NCBI RefSeq assembly: GCF_002019705.1
Contig: NZ_KV917377.1
Location: 3,969,938-4,033,937 of the forward strand
DNA length: 64,000 bases
Reading direction: 5' to 3'
Source: Shouchella patagoniensis
Lineage (GTDB): Bacteria > Bacillota > Bacilli > Bacillales > Bacillaceae_D
Part shown: positions 6,494 through 39,124 of the stretch, in pieces
Layout: each line of letters starts with the position of its first letter
Numbering within the stretch: position 1 is the first letter of the stretch
Notes under the pieces: model-generated
Seen by the model: the letters and a program-made list of their open reading frames with translations, nothing else
What the model was told of the DNA's origin: nothing
Database searches by the model: none
Made by a program: the position numbers and the translations under genes

Positions 6494-6522
6494 TTTACCC
6501 TTTTCAATCTTTCATGTATGAT
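6494..6522 (+). promoter_or_regulatory. Candidate promoter of the siderophore transporter operon
   Basis: TTTACC (6494-6499) and TATGAT (6517-6522) with 17-bp spacing. The -10 element overlaps the Fur box, as expected for iron repression. Confidence 0.6.
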
Positions 6523-6533
6523 AATGATTATCA
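6519..6533 (+). promoter_or_regulatory. Perfect 7-1-7 Fur box
   Basis: TGATAAT-G-ATTATCA matches the Bacillus Fur consensus at all 14 defined positions. It sits 38 bases before the first permease gene, covering the -10 element, so Fe-Fur should repress the operon. Confidence 0.92.
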
Positions 6534-6570: not shown

Positions 6571-7617
6571 ATGGGCAAACAATCAGCCGAAACAACTTTA
6601 GAGAAAGCAAAAGAAAAGTCTAAGCCGCTTGGTGCAGTTTTTGTCGGACTTATCGGGCTTGCTCTTCTTATTGTCGCTCTTCTTTTTTCCATTTCATATG
6701 GGGCGGCGCAGATTGATCTTAAAACCGTCTGGCAGGCTGTTTTTCAATTTGATCAATCGATAACGGATCATCAAATTATTCAAGAAATTCGTCTCCCACG
6801 TGCGCTTGGCGCTGCACTCGTTGGCAGCTTTCTCGCTGTATCTGGCGCAATTATGCAAGGGATGACGCGAAATGCGCTAGCCGAGCCATCTATTATGGGG
6901 GTTATGGACGGCGCTGCTCTTGCAATAGCGATTATGTTCGCGTTTGGAGCAAGTGTCTCTGGTGTAAGCCTAATGTTTGCAGCATTTATTGGAGCTGGAG
7001 CAGGTGCTGCTTTTGTTTTTGCTGTTGGATCGCTTGCTCGCGGAGGACTCTCTCCGGCGAAATTAGCACTCGCAGGTGTAACGGTTGGGGCATTTTTAAG
7101 TGCCATATCATCAGGCATTGCCATTCATTTTAACGTTGCTCAAGATATTAGCTTTTGGTTTGCTGGTGGTCTAGCAGGGATGAACTGGTATAACATACGT
7201 TTGATTATCCCTGTAGCGATTGTTGGTTTAGGATTTGCCTTCGCACTGTCCCGCTCGGTGACCGTGTTAAGTTTAGGTGAAGATGTAGCTCGTGGACTCG
7301 GGCAGCGTATTTTATTAATAAAAACACTAGGTGTTATTGTAGTTTTGCTTCTTACTGGAGCTGGAGTAGCGGTTGCGGGGGCAATTGGCTTTATTGGGCT
7401 CGTTATCCCTCATATTACGAGAGGGCTAGTAGGCGTTGATTATCGTTATATTATTCCTTGTTCAGCTGTACTCGGTGCTCTTTTACTTGTCTCCGCTGAC
7501 TTGGCGGCAAGACTTGTTAATGCACCTTATGAAACGCCGGTTGGAGCGATGACTGCTTTAATCGGGGTCCCTTTCTTCCTTTATTTAGCACGTCGTGAAG
7601 GGAGAGGCCTGAAATGA
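6571..7617 (+). CDS. FecCD-family iron-siderophore ABC permease (YfiZ-like)
   Basis: A 348-residue polytopic membrane protein of the FecCD/BtuC family, one half of the channel that imports ferric siderophores. Family motifs include the helix RLPRALGAALVGSFLAVSGA, the EPSIMGVMDGAAL loop, and the coupling region GFIGLVIPHITRGLVG near residue 270. The gene overlaps the next permease by 4 bases (ATGA), so translation is coupled. Order permease-permease-ATPase resembles yfiZ-yfhA with a yusV-like ATPase in Bacillus (hydroxamate-type uptake), but the substrate cannot be fixed from sequence. Confidence 0.93.
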   Translation: MGKQSAETTLEKAKEKSKPLGAVFVGLIGLALLIVALLFSISYGAAQIDLKTVWQAVFQFDQSITDHQIIQEIRLPRALGAALVGSFLAVSGAIMQGMTRNALAEPSIMGVMDGAALAIAIMFAFGASVSGVSLMFAAFIGAGAGAAFVFAVGSLARGGLSPAKLALAGVTVGAFLSAISSGIAIHFNVAQDISFWFAGGLAGMNWYNIRLIIPVAIVGLGFAFALSRSVTVLSLGEDVARGLGQRILLIKTLGVIVVLLLTGAGVAVAGAIGFIGLVIPHITRGLVGVDYRYIIPCSAVLGALLLVSADLAARLVNAPYETPVGAMTALIGVPFFLYLARREGRGLK

Positions 7618-8627
7618 AAAAAACATTTTTAAAGCGACCGACAACCATTATGGGTATGCTCATCGTTGCGATTGTTGTCCTTTTCTTTGTTAGCCTGCAA
7701 ACTGGCGCAATTCAAATTAGTCCAACGCAAGTTGTGCGGACATTGTTTGGGTATGGAACCGAACGGGATGCATTGGTCCTGTTTGAATTCAGGCTGCCAC
7801 GCATGGTTATTGCGTTATTAATTGGCGCGGGACTTGCTGTATCTGGAGCAATTTTACAAAGCATATCGCAAAATGACCTCGCTGATCCAGGAATTTTAGG
7901 GATTAATACGGGAGCGGGACTCGCTGTAGTTATCTTTATTTTCTTCTTTCAAGGGTCGTTAACTGGATTAGGTGGCTTTTCCGTTTTCATCATGCCATTT
8001 TTTGCGCTTATTGGAGCGTTAGTTGCTGCTATTCTCATTTATGTGCTTGCTTGGAAACAAGGAATCACACCCGTTAGGCTGATCTTAGTTGGAATCGGTT
8101 TAAATGCTGCATTTAGCGCTTTGCTCATCGTCATACAATTACGGATGGAACCAAACGATTTTATGCAGGCGACGATTTGGTTAACGGGAAGTATATGGGG
8201 GACTACGTGGACGTATGTCTGGGCCGTGTTGCCTTGGATTCTTATTCTTATACCACTTGCTTTTTATAAAGCAAGAACATTAAACGTTATGCAAATTGGC
8301 ACGCAGTCAGCGGTTTCATTAGGAGTCCCGCTTGAGCGGGAAAGACGAACGCTGCTTATTTTAGCTGTTAGTCTTGCTGCTGTCTCAGTAGCTGTTGGTG
8401 GAGGAATTGCTTTTCTTGGTTTAGTTGCACCACATATTGCACGTCGCCTCGTTGGTCCGAGGCATGAAGTACTGATCCCAGCTGCTGCTTTGACAGGTGC
8501 ATTGATTTTACTTACGGCTGATATGATTGGGCGAAACTTACTCGCGCCGTCTGAAATACCAGTCGGCATTGTGATTGCTATTCTTGGAGCGCCTTACTTT
8601 TTGTATTTGTTAATGAGAACGCCATAG
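7614..8627 (+). CDS. FecCD-family iron-siderophore ABC permease (YfhA-like)
   Basis: A 337-residue partner of the upstream permease, forming the membrane heterodimer. It repeats the family marks: FRLPRMVIALLIGAGLAVSG, DLADPGILGINTGAGL and GGGIAFLGLVAPHIARRLVG. Start ATG 7614 overlaps the preceding stop. Twelve bases separate its stop from the TTG start of the ATPase gene, so all three form one Fur-controlled operon. Confidence 0.93.
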   Translation: MKKTFLKRPTTIMGMLIVAIVVLFFVSLQTGAIQISPTQVVRTLFGYGTERDALVLFEFRLPRMVIALLIGAGLAVSGAILQSISQNDLADPGILGINTGAGLAVVIFIFFFQGSLTGLGGFSVFIMPFFALIGALVAAILIYVLAWKQGITPVRLILVGIGLNAAFSALLIVIQLRMEPNDFMQATIWLTGSIWGTTWTYVWAVLPWILILIPLAFYKARTLNVMQIGTQSAVSLGVPLERERRTLLILAVSLAAVSVAVGGGIAFLGLVAPHIARRLVGPRHEVLIPAAALTGALILLTADMIGRNLLAPSEIPVGIVIAILGAPYFLYLLMRTP

Positions 8628-8639
8628 GAGGGACTTATT

Positions 8640-9473
8640 TTGTCACGTTTATCGACAGAGAAGCTATCAATTGGATACGAAAAAAGAGAGATTGTGAGCG
8701 ATCTTTATCTTCATATTCCAGATGGGAAAATTACAACGATTATTGGACCAAACGGCTGTGGAAAGTCAACCATACTTAAAACCGTTGCGCGAATTCTAAA
8801 AGCGTCAAAAGGAGCCGTTTATTTAGATGGTAAGTCGATTCATAAACAATCAACAAAGGAAATTGCGAAAAAGATGGCTGTACTTCCACAGTCTCCTGAA
8901 GCGCCAAGTGGATTAACTGTTCAAGAACTTGTGGCATATGGTCGATATCCTCATCAAAAAGGGTTTGGCCAATTAAAAGATTATGATCACGAGATTATTA
9001 AGTGGGCTCTTGAGCAAACAAATATGCTCGAATTTGCGGAGCGCTCCATTGAGGCGCTTTCTGGTGGGCAGCGACAGCGAGTTTGGATTGCAATGGCTCT
9101 TGCCCAAGAAACGGATATTCTCTTGCTTGATGAACCGACAACATACTTGGATCTTGCGCATCAACTCGAAGTATTGCAAGTACTCGAACGTTTAAATAGA
9201 GAACAGAATCGAACGATTGTAATGGTTATCCATGATTTAAATCATGCTGCACGCTTTGCTGATTATATGGTTTCCATTCGCAACGGCAAGATTATGAAAG
9301 AGGGTTCTCCAGAAGATGTGATGTGTTCGGATGTATTGCGGGACGTATTCCAAATCGATGCGAGCATCGTCTCAGACCCTCGAACAGGGAAGCCGGTCTG
9401 CTTAACGTATGATTTAATGAACGAACAACACCATCATGAAGAGCAAATAGAAAAGATTCCAGCGCTTGTTTAA
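8640..9473 (+). CDS. Iron-siderophore ABC transporter ATPase (YusV/FecE-like)
   Basis: A 277-residue ABC ATPase that powers the two permeases. Walker A GPNGCGKST (residues 36-44), Q-loop LPQSPE, signature LSGGQRQR (from 140), Walker B ILLLDEP (160-166) and the switch histidine in MVIHDLNH are intact. The C-terminus carries a His-rich HHHEEQ tail. It starts at TTG 8640 with AGGAGGGAC upstream. Most like YusV, the shared siderophore ATPase of B. subtilis. The operon has no substrate-binding lipoprotein, so that part must be encoded elsewhere. The stop codon lies in the loop of the terminator. Confidence 0.93.
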   Translation: MSRLSTEKLSIGYEKREIVSDLYLHIPDGKITTIIGPNGCGKSTILKTVARILKASKGAVYLDGKSIHKQSTKEIAKKMAVLPQSPEAPSGLTVQELVAYGRYPHQKGFGQLKDYDHEIIKWALEQTNMLEFAERSIEALSGGQRQRVWIAMALAQETDILLLDEPTTYLDLAHQLEVLQVLERLNREQNRTIVMVIHDLNHAARFADYMVSIRNGKIMKEGSPEDVMCSDVLRDVFQIDASIVSDPRTGKPVCLTYDLMNEQHHHEEQIEKIPALV

Positions 9474-9488: not shown

Positions 9489-10275
9489 ATTTTAGCGCTA
9501 GTTTAATAGCAATCCCAATTTGTTCAGTAAATTGTCCATCTTCGTTGAGTTTAAGGAGTTCACTCGTTAAGTGCGTCTCAAATTCGCGAGAACGGCTACC
9601 TAGAAACCGTTTGGCTCCAAAGGAAGTGGAATAGAGATGACCAATAATTGTTTCAGGTGTCCATATAAAAGAATAAAAGGGAAGTTCAACTTGATCAAAC
9701 GTAAAAGAAGAGGATTGAATGATTTCTTCATGACGAATGCTCGGATGGGTATAAGTTGTTTTGCCGGCTCGGCGTTTTTTTCCGTACCACTGCTCTGTCA
9801 CATGTTTAACGGTTTGTTGCCATTGTTCTGTTTTTTGTCCATATTGATCAATAATGGCGATGCCGCCGCCAGCAACAATTCGAGGATAAAGCTGTTCCAA
9901 AGTTGTTTTTCGGTCCATCCAATGAAAGGCCTTTGCGATTGTAACAAGCTTTAAATTGTCCTCATTGTTGGTTCTCAAGTAGGTATCGAGTGTACCGTGC
10001 AACCATTTGGTGTTTGTTAGTCGTAACGTCGAACTAAAATCTTGAGCTTCTTGAATCATTTCTAACTCGGGATCGATGCCAATGATCTGATCAAACCAAT
10101 CAGAAAAACGACAAGCTAGTTGCCCAGTGCCACACCCTAAATCAAGCATCGTGCCGTCTCCATTCGTTGAAAAGGTATGGATCAGAAAACGAACTAAAGA
10201 GGGTGGATATAACGGTCTGTACTTCGAATAAAAGGAAGCGGTTCCTTGGAACAACTCGCTTCCATAATCGCTCAT
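9487..10275 (-). CDS. Class I SAM-dependent methyltransferase
   Basis: A 262-residue soluble enzyme with the SAM-binding glycine loop MLDLGCGTGQLA (residues 43-54) and the acidic tip IIGIDPE one strand later. The FHWMD motif near residue 115 is common in the UbiE/Tam-like Methyltransf_11 group. Start ATG 10275 is preceded by AAAGGAGAG. Methyl acceptor unknown. It converges on the siderophore operon, sharing a terminator, with no evident functional link. Confidence 0.88.
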   Translation of the reverse strand: MSDYGSELFQGTASFYSKYRPLYPPSLVRFLIHTFSTNGDGTMLDLGCGTGQLACRFSDWFDQIIGIDPELEMIQEAQDFSSTLRLTNTKWLHGTLDTYLRTNNEDNLKLVTIAKAFHWMDRKTTLEQLYPRIVAGGGIAIIDQYGQKTEQWQQTVKHVTEQWYGKKRRAGKTTYTHPSIRHEEIIQSSSFTFDQVELPFYSFIWTPETIIGHLYSTSFGAKRFLGSRSREFETHLTSELLKLNEDGQFTEQIGIAIKLALK

Positions 10276-10468
10276 CTTAGTCTCTCCTTTCTAGTAACAA
10301 TATGATTATCGTATCATTAAATGGAATGTTCATCAGTATAAGTTTCACTGTCGATTAATGCAAGATGAATAAGGCGATTCTCATTATCAATAAAGAGTCG
10401 ACCTTAGTCATACTAGGGTATAAAATGAACTTAAAGAAAAAATAATTGATCTAATTGAGAAAAGAGGA

Positions 10469-10497
10469 TTGACAATGATAATGATATTCGTTATCAT
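10469..10497 (+). promoter_or_regulatory. Strong sigma-A promoter of a short RNA
   Basis: TTGACA (10469-10474), 17-bp spacer, TATCAT (10492-10497): six and five of six matches. A Fur box fills the spacer. Start predicted near 10504. Confidence 0.85.
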
Positions 10498-10498
10498 T
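10474..10498 (+). promoter_or_regulatory. Fur-binding site over the short-RNA promoter
   Basis: AATGATAA-N9-TTATCATT, an interrupted palindrome equal to two overlapping 7-1-7 Fur motifs (TGATAATGATATTCG and TGATATTCGTTATCA) offset by 6 bp, a common arrangement in Bacillus. It spans the region between -35 and -10, so iron should shut the promoter. Confidence 0.85.
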
Positions 10499-10503
10499 TA
10501 AAT

Positions 10504-10583
10504 ATAACGTGATACATACACGTCAGGTTTCTATAGACCCCCTTATGGATACCTCCGCCTTAGACAAGCGGAGGTCTTTTTTT
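10504..10583 (+). ncRNA. fsrA: Fur-controlled small RNA, FsrA-like
   Basis: The promoter is followed after about 47 bases by an intrinsic terminator (ACCTCCGC 10551-10558 / GCGGAGGT 10568-10575, then a T run), giving a transcript of about 80 nt. No reading frame with a ribosome site fits in it. It has a 5' hairpin (ACGTG 10507-10511 / CACGT 10519-10523), a C-rich unpaired stretch (CCCCC at 10538-10542, CCTCC inside the stem) and a terminator tail. B. subtilis FsrA is an 84-nt Fur-repressed RNA that uses C-rich segments to block ribosome sites of iron-rich enzymes under iron starvation. Size, control and C-richness match; sequence identity to known FsrA was not tested. Confidence 0.75.
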
Positions 10584-10846
10584 GTTTTCAAAAAAAATAA
10601 CCCAGAAAACCTTTGCTACTAAAGGATTCACGGTTATTGAGTTTGCTTATTTTTCATTGCTGGTAGTGAGGTTGGCAGGGTTTTTCGATGCGTCTCTTCT
10701 AAGATTGAGCTTTATCTATTTAGTCGTCCATTTTTCTATATTGTTCATAACAACGCGCACCAATGATGTTGGTAGTTGAATAAAATACGACTAAAGCTGT
10801 TTTTTATTCAATTGTTTGGATAAACTGTCTATGAACAAGGAAAGAA
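10584..10846. other. Intergenic stretch after the small RNA
   Basis: No convincing gene. An open frame beginning with TTG inside the sRNA terminator T run has no ribosome site and is not called. Confidence 0.5.
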
Positions 10847-10861
10847 ATGAGGCCGACCAGT

Positions 10862-11014
10862 ATGCTTTCATCTGATGAGTTGTATTTGTTTAAACGAGAA
10901 CTAGCGAGATTGGAAGAAGAGAAGCAGAAAATACCATTAAATCATAAGTATAAATTGTTTTTAGATGATCAAATCGATTTACTACAAGACGTTATTCGAT
11001 CACATGAAGAGTAA
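10862..11014 (+). CDS. Small charged protein, paralogue of the protein at 50092-50250
   Basis: A 50-residue, probably coiled-coil protein. It begins MLSSDELYLFKRELARLEEEK and shares the pattern ML-x3-ELYLFKREL-x-RL-x2-EK...FLD-x-QI-x-LLQ-x-V with the 52-residue protein encoded at 50092-50250 on the other strand. That similarity supports the start at ATG 10862 (GAGG 9 bases upstream) over an in-frame ATG at 10847. A terminator follows at once. Function unknown; conservation of two copies in one window makes it a real family. Confidence 0.75.
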   Translation: MLSSDELYLFKRELARLEEEKQKIPLNHKYKLFLDDQIDLLQDVIRSHEE

Positions 11015-11050
11015 CTCCACTTCTACCGCGGTAAGAGTGGAGTTTTTTTA
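11013..11050 (+). terminator. Terminator of the small charged protein gene
   Basis: AACTCCACTTCTACC / GGTAAGAGTGGAGTT followed by T7; the stem starts within the stop codon. Confidence 0.88.
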
Positions 11051-11137
11051 TTTAAAGCACTCGTCTGGACACCGGAGAATGAACCTGCAATAATGTAACA
11101 CGTATGTATTAGTTGTGATGAGGGGAAGTAAGTAAAA

Positions 11138-11974
11138 ATGTCTGTATCGTTGTATCAATTTTTAAAAGAAAATACATGGGAGTTAACAGAAGAATGGTAT
11201 AAAGGGTTGGATAAAACAAAAGGTGGCGTATATGGTTCGACGGTTCCAGAGAAAATTCAAGAGCTGAAACAACAAAACCATGAATTCCATCTTATTTTTG
11301 TTGAGCTCTTTAATGAAGAAAGCGAACGTTTAGACGATGAATTTGGCCAATGGGTAAATAAAATTGTTTTAGACCAGGCCCATTTAGCAACGCCCCTGCC
11401 GGAAATAATCGAAGAATTTTTTAATAACCAAACCTTATATTTAAAAACAATAGACACATACGTTGAAACGCATAGTCCTGAATTAAGCATTACGGAGTAT
11501 AATAAATACATCCAGTTGCTTCTTCACGCCTTTCAACAAATTGTGATTGAGTTTAGTAAACGGAATCAAGAAAAGTCAGAACAATTATTGTTAGCTCAAA
11601 AAGAAATGATAACAGAGTTAAGTTCTCCTGTTATCCAGCTAAATGAACAGATTGCTCTTTTGCCGTTAGTAGGTGAAATTGATACACATCGTGCAAAAGT
11701 TATTTTTGAACAGACACTTCAGAGCTGTGTTGATAATCGGATTCAGTCGCTCCTAATCGATTTGTCAGGAGTTCCTGTTGTTGATACGATGGTTGCTAAC
11801 CAGCTGTTTCAATTAATTGAAGGTCTTACGCTAGTAGGCACAATTGCTTCATTATCGGGCATTCGTCCAGAAATTGCGCAAACAGCAGTTCAACTAGGCA
11901 TTGATTTTAACCGGACAAAAGTGTATGCCACAATCGCAAGTGCATTATCAAAATTAAATTTTAATGCAATGTAG
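11138..11974 (+). CDS. RsbR-family stressosome protein (RsbRD-like)
   Basis: A 278-residue stressosome subunit. The N-terminal half is a helical, non-haem globin-like sensor type; the C-terminal STAS domain spans about residues 160-275. The two threonines that RsbT kinase phosphorylates in RsbR are both present in their motifs: Thr183 in IDTHRAK and Thr217 in GVPVVDTMVA. RsbR paralogues gate release of RsbT and thereby the sigma-B general stress response. It is a lone gene, not in an rsb operon, as in B. subtilis yqhA (rsbRD). Start ATG 11138 has GGGGAAG about 9 bases upstream. Confidence 0.85.
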   Translation: MSVSLYQFLKENTWELTEEWYKGLDKTKGGVYGSTVPEKIQELKQQNHEFHLIFVELFNEESERLDDEFGQWVNKIVLDQAHLATPLPEIIEEFFNNQTLYLKTIDTYVETHSPELSITEYNKYIQLLLHAFQQIVIEFSKRNQEKSEQLLLAQKEMITELSSPVIQLNEQIALLPLVGEIDTHRAKVIFEQTLQSCVDNRIQSLLIDLSGVPVVDTMVANQLFQLIEGLTLVGTIASLSGIRPEIAQTAVQLGIDFNRTKVYATIASALSKLNFNAM

Positions 11975-12024
11975 TGTGCGGTTGATCATCGTTTAGAAGT
12001 AAGCGATAATGAGGAAGATAACGT

Positions 12025-38604: not shown

Positions 38605-38634
38605 TTGAAAATGATTATCACTATCATTTAAACT
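38605..38634 (+). promoter_or_regulatory. Candidate promoter of the flavodoxin gene
   Basis: TTGAAA (38605-38610), 18 bp, TAAACT (38629-38634); the spacer holds the Fur box. Confidence 0.5.
38612..38626 (+). promoter_or_regulatory. Fur box before flavodoxin
   Basis: TGATTAT-C-ACTATCA matches the 7-1-7 Fur consensus at 12 of 14 positions and covers the promoter spacer. Confidence 0.8.
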
Positions 38635-38665
38635 AATGAGGAGAACGGAAAGGAGAGAATTTCCA

Positions 38666-39124
38666 ATGCGAGTGTGTATTGTCTTTGCCAGCATGTCAGG
38701 AAATACAGAAGATATTGCTGTAATCATAAAAAAAGAACTTTTAAAAGGTGGAGTAAATGTAGACGTTGAAGAAATGGATGGCTATTCAGCGAGTGACTTA
38801 GAAGATTATGACGGGGTGCTTATAGGTAGCTATACGTGGGGGGACGGAGATTTACCTTATGAAGCAGAGGATTTTGAAGAAGAATTGACGGAAATCGATT
38901 TATCAGGTATACCAGCAGCTGCTTTTGGTTCTGGAGATCGTGTGTATCCTTCTTATTGTGAGGCGGTACATATTTTTGAAAAAACACTTCGAGAATGCGG
39001 AGCAACCATTGTAAGTGAATGTCTAGAAATCGAATTTGATCCAAATACAGATGCGGAAATTGAGGCATGCCGAATATTCGCTCAGACCTATCTTCATGCA
39101 TTAAAACAGCGCATTGCTGTTTAA
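38666..39124 (+). CDS. Short-chain flavodoxin, iron-regulated (YkuN/YkuP-like)
   Basis: A 152-residue FMN electron carrier. The phosphate loop SMSGNTE (residues 8-14), the first aromatic loop SYTWGDGDLP and the second GSGDRVYPSYC are all seen. Short flavodoxins replace ferredoxin when iron is scarce; in B. subtilis ykuN and ykuP are Fur-repressed, and the Fur box here points to the same use. ATG 38666 has AAAGGAG 10 bases upstream; an in-frame ATG at 38636 is close to the promoter and unlikely. Confidence 0.93.
   Translation: MRVCIVFASMSGNTEDIAVIIKKELLKGGVNVDVEEMDGYSASDLEDYDGVLIGSYTWGDGDLPYEAEDFEEELTEIDLSGIPAAAFGSGDRVYPSYCEAVHIFEKTLRECGATIVSECLEIEFDPNTDAEIEACRIFAQTYLHALKQRIAV

Follow-up and report, generated by a model that had tools for sequence, protein, structure and literature searches.

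Iron-sparing small RNAs have been worked out in few Gram-positive groups; in proteobacteria, PrrF and RyhB are Fur-repressed RNAs of this kind. FsrA has FbpABC as its helper proteins and includes gltAB, leuCD, and lutABC among its further targets. As described in PMC12871923, sdhC and citB also belong to the FsrA targets, FbpB is a proposed helper, and homologs of FsrA are known from Bacilli, Staphylococci, and Listeria; in B. subtilis, the FsrA gene is placed at ykuI-ykuJ (PMC3574147). IsrR, in the description by its authors, is a Fur-repressed and C-rich RNA that occurs across one genus, has citB among its predicted targets, and is not an ortholog of other characterised RNAs, including FsrA (PMC9410917). 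In the statements drawn on here, the papers disagree as to whether the Gram-positive iron-sparing RNAs share one ancestor.

Here, we describe a locus in a 64,000-nucleotide stretch of DNA (the whole stretch analysed, hereafter designated the window) that had been read in an earlier note as a Fur-controlled RNA resembling FsrA. In that reading, the free-standing C-rich RNA with a Fur box and with predicted pairing to citB and sdhC stands, whereas membership in the FsrA family does not. We consider it likely that the locus encodes a small RNA that is repressed by Fur, acts in trans, and is specific to the genus as a functional analogue of FsrA and IsrR; the RNA would most likely serve as an iron-sparing repressor of citB and sdhC. 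A description of this RNA was found neither in the open-licence literature nor by Rfam scans.

Promoter and body of the RNA

A sigma-A-type promoter, TTGACA-17-TATCAT, is situated at 10469–10497 on the forward strand; it agrees with the consensus in 11 of 12 letters, was the top promoter-like site of a promoter scan within 9500–12000, and has its hexamers conserved in 12 of 12 aligned loci of the genus, including its own. The spacer carries overlapping Fur-box registers (10470–10496, forward strand), which are near-invariant in the 12 genus loci and also present in the diverged genome G007. Three Fur-like 7-1-7 registers overlap here, starting at 10470, 10476, and 10482 with 3, 3, and 2 mismatches, respectively, and the box shares 17 of 19 letters with a Fur consensus. 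Thus, the near-consensus promoter claimed earlier was recovered, with TTGACA at 10469 and, after a spacer of 17 nt, TATCAT up to 10497, and what had been called a double Fur motif in the spacer consists of three registers conserved in the genus. Because Fur-like matches with up to 3 mismatches are common in the window (13 versus 8.0 expected, with 13 reached by 10 of 100 shuffles), the box alone is no proof, and its conservation is the better evidence. The Fur boxes that had been proposed at 6519 and 38612 indeed stand before genes on the forward strand: a perfect box (0 mismatches; 6519–6533) precedes a FecCD iron-siderophore permease operon (6571–9473), and overlapping Fur-like boxes with 1 and 2 mismatches (38606–38626) precede a flavodoxin gene (38636–39124).

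With its first base inferred from the −10 box, the small RNA would span about 80 nt (10504–10583, forward strand). It begins with a 5′ hairpin, P1 (ACGTG-7 nt-CACGT; 10507–10523, forward strand), of which the segment CATACACGT (10515–10523) is complementary to the sdhC start region ACGTGTATG. After the hairpin follow the stretch TATAGACCCCCTTATGG, with the C-rich seed AGACCCCCTT at 10535–10544 (forward strand), and then an intrinsic terminator at 10551–10583 (forward strand), reading ACCTCCGC-9 nt-GCGGAGGT-C-T7, with an 8-bp stem, a 9-nt loop, and the T7 tract at 10577–10583. The terminator was missed by an automatic scan because the loop limit of the scan was 8, and is plain in the sequence; four of its eight stem pairs show changes on both sides across species. 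The RNA strand folds better than its own shuffles (z −3.8), and in the minimum-energy fold part of the seed region is paired and the hairpins are partly unlike the P1 and terminator reading. The 5′ hairpin and C5 run pointed out earlier are both common to 12 of the 13 genus genomes, as is the terminator, but the "second CCTCC", taken as a feature of the design, is an arm of the terminator and is not conserved. That no peptide would fit was confirmed: the frames within the 13 genus RNAs vary in length, sequence, and stops, and a small-peptide reading was dropped since these internal frames are not conserved.

Conservation in the genus and place upstream of pcrB

Promoter, Fur box, 5′ hairpin, C run, and terminator are common to 12 of the 13 genomes of the genus, including its own. 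When 100 genomes, among them the own genome, were searched at the DNA level, long matches were obtained in 11 of the 12 congeners, and the twelfth, G007, gave the Fur box alone. The motif AGACCCC is kept in all 12 typical RNAs, and the letters of the linker and terminator vary. A covariance model, R1, was built from the 12 aligned genus loci, which match it by construction (94.5 bits for the own RNA and 49 to 91.4 bits for the other 11). Among 397 sampled genomes of the order, R1 was strong only in the genus (4 of 5 genus genomes listed), G007 not being found in this sample. The best match outside the genus reached 34.7 bits (E 1.2e-5), and 57 non-genus genomes matched at E ≤ 0.1; these weak matches were set aside, as the 26 of the 57 genomes that were fetched had no convincing Fur box (best 13 of 19 or 12 of 15 letters).

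Covariation was assessed in an alignment that is fitted to R1 and includes the weak G007 match. Pairing according to the R1 structure amounted to 88.8% of cells, as compared with 82.8% in shuffles, and three of five measures beat every one of 500 shuffles; the measure of further pair types was reached by 8 of the 500, and the number of pairs with both-side changes, reached by 72 of the 500, is ordinary. For P1 and P2 (GGTC/GACC), no both-side changes were seen across the genus alignment, so that the support for these two helices is sequence conservation only. P2 is absent from the B clade (G003, G005, G008, and G012).

Each of the 13 genus genomes has a Fur-box promoter of this kind ahead of pcrB and on its strand, as read from the window and L041 in two of them and from flanking sequence in the others; the rows for a small ORF that comes after the RNA were left out of account. 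In G007, the promoter at this position leads into an RNA that is longer and differs in its 5′ portion, with AAGATCCCCTTTT and a terminator following. The terminator ends about 70 nt before the pcrB match; as R1 gives this RNA only 17.6 bits, its kinship rests on place, promoter, and terminator. In eight pcrB loci outside the genus (L042–L049), no Fur box was found up to 1.5 kb upstream of the match, except for one weak 12-of-15 Fur match 445 bases upstream in L045. The constant place ahead of pcrB and the short distance in G007 would also suit a leader or attenuator through which Fur controls the pcrB operon. We regard this as very improbable, given that the terminator is kept with both-side changes, that at least one other gene intervenes between the RNA and pcrB in its own genome and in G006, and that seed and citB differ together in G007, as described below. 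A separate trans-acting RNA is the reading that we prefer.

Search for FsrA and other iron-sparing RNAs

The Rfam model of FsrA (RF02273) had no match in the window at the gathering score, none at E ≤ 10 within 10400–10700, and none at E ≤ 0.001 in the own genome or the 12 congeners, two of which gave weak matches (best E 0.06 and 0.65) away from the locus of this RNA. With the same model, FsrA was found in B. subtilis, which served as a control, and G082 gave a true FsrA scoring 115.7 bits. The FsrA covariance search, which the earlier note had proposed as a check, thus returned no family match here, this being one half of what the note had named as speaking against it. Weak RF02273 matches in relatives (up to 33.5 bits) were rejected, since the nine fetched loci (L032–L040) lacked an upstream Fur box on the same strand, showing 9 to 12 of 19 Fur letters as against 17 for the G082 FsrA and for this RNA. 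The G082 FsrA (L031) adjoins a YkuI-type gene (YkuI_C/EAL) and folds with a 5′ hairpin and with C runs after the hairpin and in the terminator loop; in a two-sequence alignment, it shared no body with the present RNA. The PrrF model gave 19.2 bits against a gathering score of 90, mostly from Fur-box letters and bases downstream of the RNA, and RyhB was not among the Rfam matches in the window or at 10400–10700. The FbpB family PF13040 occurred in all 13 genus genomes and in 60 of 60 genomes searched, and hence does not discriminate.

A pattern composed of a Fur box, CCCC, and a T run within about 100 nt was applied to the 100 genomes. It recovered the genus RNA in 7 genomes (the own genome among them), the G082 FsrA, and new candidates in G070 and G075, and a reversed control pattern found none in the 100 genomes; having missed 5 of the 12 genomes with a typical RNA, the pattern is strict. 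A true but highly diverged FsrA ortholog that has been relocated in the genome would account for the parts being arranged alike (a promoter with a Fur box, then a 5′ hairpin, a C-rich stretch, and a terminator), for the prediction of sdhC and citB as targets of both RNAs, and for one pattern finding both. Such an ortholog is nevertheless unlikely in view of the lack of an RF02273 match at this locus with a model that finds the real FsrA, the different neighbours, and the absence of a common body. Moreover, the other genera of family f1 (g2–g7), sampled with 28 genomes, gave no match to the strict pattern, and no intermediate was seen there. The preferred reading remains an RNA of a separate family that is analogous to FsrA in function.

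In the G070 candidate (L080, reverse strand, 1501–1594; family f31), a TTGACA promoter bearing the box precedes AAACAAACCCCGCTCCCCCTAAGGG and a strong terminator; inspection by eye revealed no resemblance to this RNA or to FsrA. In the G075 candidate (L081, reverse strand, 1501–1600; family f36), the Fur box comes just after a TTGACG/TATACT promoter and is followed by CCGTTACCCCCCTAACGG, in which C6 stands in a hairpin loop recalling the CRR1 of IsrR, by GGCCCC, and by a long terminator. Single near-consensus Fur boxes are present in many relatives (L014–L030 and others), and L014 (G016) has two Fur boxes in a row before a possible gene start.

Predicted pairing with citB and sdhC

Any C-rich RNA pairs to some extent with G-rich Shine-Dalgarno sites. 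Five genes named for FsrA (sdhC, citB, gltA, leuC, and lutA) were evaluated against a background of 301 start regions, collected by a simple script from 20 stretches of the own genome and the window, and shuffle tests were carried out per genome, the species of one genus not being independent of each other. With P1 plus the core, citB ranked 4 of 301 by both cofold and duplex, and with the core alone and target accessibility it ranked 5. The hexamer GGGTCT, the complement of the conserved seed, occurs in 2 of the 301 background start regions and stands at the Shine-Dalgarno end, directly ahead of the start, in 11 of the 12 readable citB sites, the piece fetched for G006 being without the citB start. 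In the shuffle test with P1 plus the core, citB reached 0.03 or below in 6 of 12 genomes, and the remaining six gave 0.17 to 0.88, including the four B-clade genomes (0.20–0.34) and G002 (0.17), none of which pair better than shuffles. As for G006, a draft of 290 contigs, citB and lutB each match in two overlapping pieces (L122/L123 and L133/L137) and one citB piece has stops, possibly through assembly errors.

For sdhC, the ranks among 301 were 4 (cofold) and 3 (duplex) with P1 plus the core, and 48 with the core alone and accessibility. Two sites were recognised. The leader element is located some 40 nt ahead of the start and apart from the Shine-Dalgarno sequence. It reads GGGGTCT in 7 genomes; the 4 B-clade genomes, whose RNAs read ACCCCTTTT, have AAAAGGGGT there and lack the TCT (together 11 of 13). 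The start codon region ACGTGTATG matches the P1 loop and 3′ arm over 9 nt in 7 and over 8 nt in 4 of the 13 genomes, and none of the 301 background regions of the own genome reaches an 8-nt match to P1. The two sites stand in the antiparallel order that one RNA would need to hold both. G002 and G007 have neither leader element, and their match of P1 to the start is only 4 nt. In the shuffle test with P1 plus the core, sdhC reached 0.03 or less in 9 of the 13 genomes and 0.08–0.09 in two more; G002 (0.40) is no better than shuffles, and G007 gave 0.67. GGGGT, GGGTCT, and CGTGTATG were absent from all 22 sdhC leaders examined in sister genera, and no RNA of this family was found in these relatives. 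Among the same leaders (L194–L215), 21 of 22 have a six-G Shine-Dalgarno sequence at about −13; in the genus with the RNA it is GGAGGG, thus differing from the lineages without the RNA.

A coupled change of RNA and citB in G007

In G007, the RNA segment AAGATCCCCT and the citB segment AGGGGATCTT form a perfect match of 10 nt. On this citB site the other 12 RNAs match 5 or 6 nt at most, the G007 RNA matches six other citB sites tested over 5 to 7 nt, and a 10-nt match to the G007 citB was reached by 14 of 5000 letter shuffles of the G007 RNA. RNA and citB have changed together in G007, which constitutes a coupled difference of seed and target. On the G007 citB site, the matched seed gave −19.4, and six other seeds gave −12.8 to −18.0. 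When placed on the citB site of G009, the G007 seed gave −18.9, almost equal to the value on its own site, indicating that the mRNA discriminates between partners more strongly than the RNA does. The full-length duplexes of G007 are weaker than the shuffle mean (0.88 for citB and 0.67 for sdhC).

Other tested targets and fortuitous pairing

The ranks of the remaining genes among 301 with P1 plus the core (cofold and duplex, respectively) were 2 and 28 for leuC, 21 and 54 for lutA, and 60 and 108 for gltA; with the core and accessibility, they were 5, 184, and 30, respectively. Starts were recognised in 10 of 13 genomes for gltA, in 11 of 13 for leuC, and for lutA in 4 of the 9 genomes with lutB over the cut-off, and a second attempt at five further lutA starts recognised none. 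In the shuffle test, gltA gave at least 0.50 in 10 of 10 genomes, with none at or below 0.05, and is unsupported as a target. For leuC, the value was 0.03 in its own genome (G000) and at least 0.27 in the other 10, so it was discarded as a genus-wide target, its site being found in the own genome alone. lutA ranged from 0.05 to 0.32 in 4 genomes, none counted as at or below 0.05, and was judged weak. Accordingly, of the targets anticipated earlier (sdh, citB, and leuCD), sdh and citB have good predicted sites, whereas leuC has none beyond the own genome.

The start region of ccsB (c-type cytochrome biogenesis; L176:15001–16197, reverse strand) has AAAGGGGGACATAATGG and was fourth of 301 in the scan with core and accessibility; it may be a further iron-related target.

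These mixed scores bear on whether the locus is merely a Fur-regulated promoter with a terminator, the C run and the citB and sdhC matches being chance fits to G-rich ribosome sites. The modest core-only ranks of sdhC (48) and gltA (30), the lack of support for gltA and, outside G000, for leuC, the weakness of lutA, and the 6 of 12 citB duplexes that fail to beat shuffles all accord with such chance fits. On the other hand, AGACCCC is kept in 12 RNAs despite the varying letters of linker and terminator, the sdhC leader site is not a Shine-Dalgarno sequence and is absent from 22 of 22 leaders of relatives, the match of P1 to the sdhC start is unreached in 301 regions, and the citB pair of G007 is coupled. 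Chance fitting is thus quite unlikely, and we favour direct pairing of the RNA with citB and sdhC mRNAs.

Discussion

Judging from the position of the Fur box, Fur would leave the promoter when iron is scarce, and the RNA of about 80 nt would be made. Its seed, AGACCCC(C), is predicted to pair with citB mRNA over the Shine-Dalgarno sequence and the bases immediately preceding the start codon. For sdhC mRNA, two contacts are predicted, one of the seed with GGGGTCT or AAAAGGGGT some 40 nt ahead of the start and one of the P1 loop and 3′ arm with ACGTGTATG on the start codon. These contacts on both mRNAs would block the entry of ribosomes; the iron-rich TCA enzymes would then not be made, and iron would be spared. 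The sequence itself, its conservation and place in the genus, and the coupled differences between RNA and target are observed directly; Fur binding, iron-dependent expression, and repression are what we infer.

The RNA adds a genus-wide case of iron sparing with its own locus and body. Since the difference between G007 and the rest is a natural one in both seed and target, direct pairing can be tested without designing mutants. A simple sequence rule (Fur box, C run, and T run within about 100 nt) has also been gained, which finds FsrA, this family, and two further candidates. It may be proposed that Fur-driven, C-rich iron-sparing RNAs either arose separately in many lineages of the order or diverged there until they were no longer recognisable. 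FsrA, IsrR, the present RNA, and the unrelated-looking short RNAs of G070 and G075 would then represent one design reached in parallel, every RNA having a position and body of its own, and mRNA leaders such as that of sdhC would have gained lineage-specific docking sites; to this proposal we give an even chance of being correct.

In comparison with known systems, the present RNA resembles FsrA, which is about 84 nt long (PMC12871923), in its Fur-box promoter, 5′ hairpin, C-rich stretch, and intrinsic terminator, and both sdhC and citB are predicted targets here as well. It differs in that FsrA is located at ykuI-ykuJ and this RNA upstream of pcrB in 13 of 13 genomes, in that the G082 FsrA has one C run in the terminator loop, and in that no supported gltA site and a weak lutA site were found here. 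With IsrR of Staphylococcus it shares the genus-wide occurrence, the C-rich sequence, and citB as a predicted target, the Fur box here being predicted. IsrR is 174 nt long, contains three C-rich regions, and carries another Fur box directly behind its start site (PMC9410917), whereas, compared by this description, the present RNA has about 80 nt, one conserved C run, and the box inside the promoter. Collectively, judged by model, place, and body, the RNA is not FsrA and forms a separate family, which, to go by its Fur box and predicted targets, probably works like FsrA.
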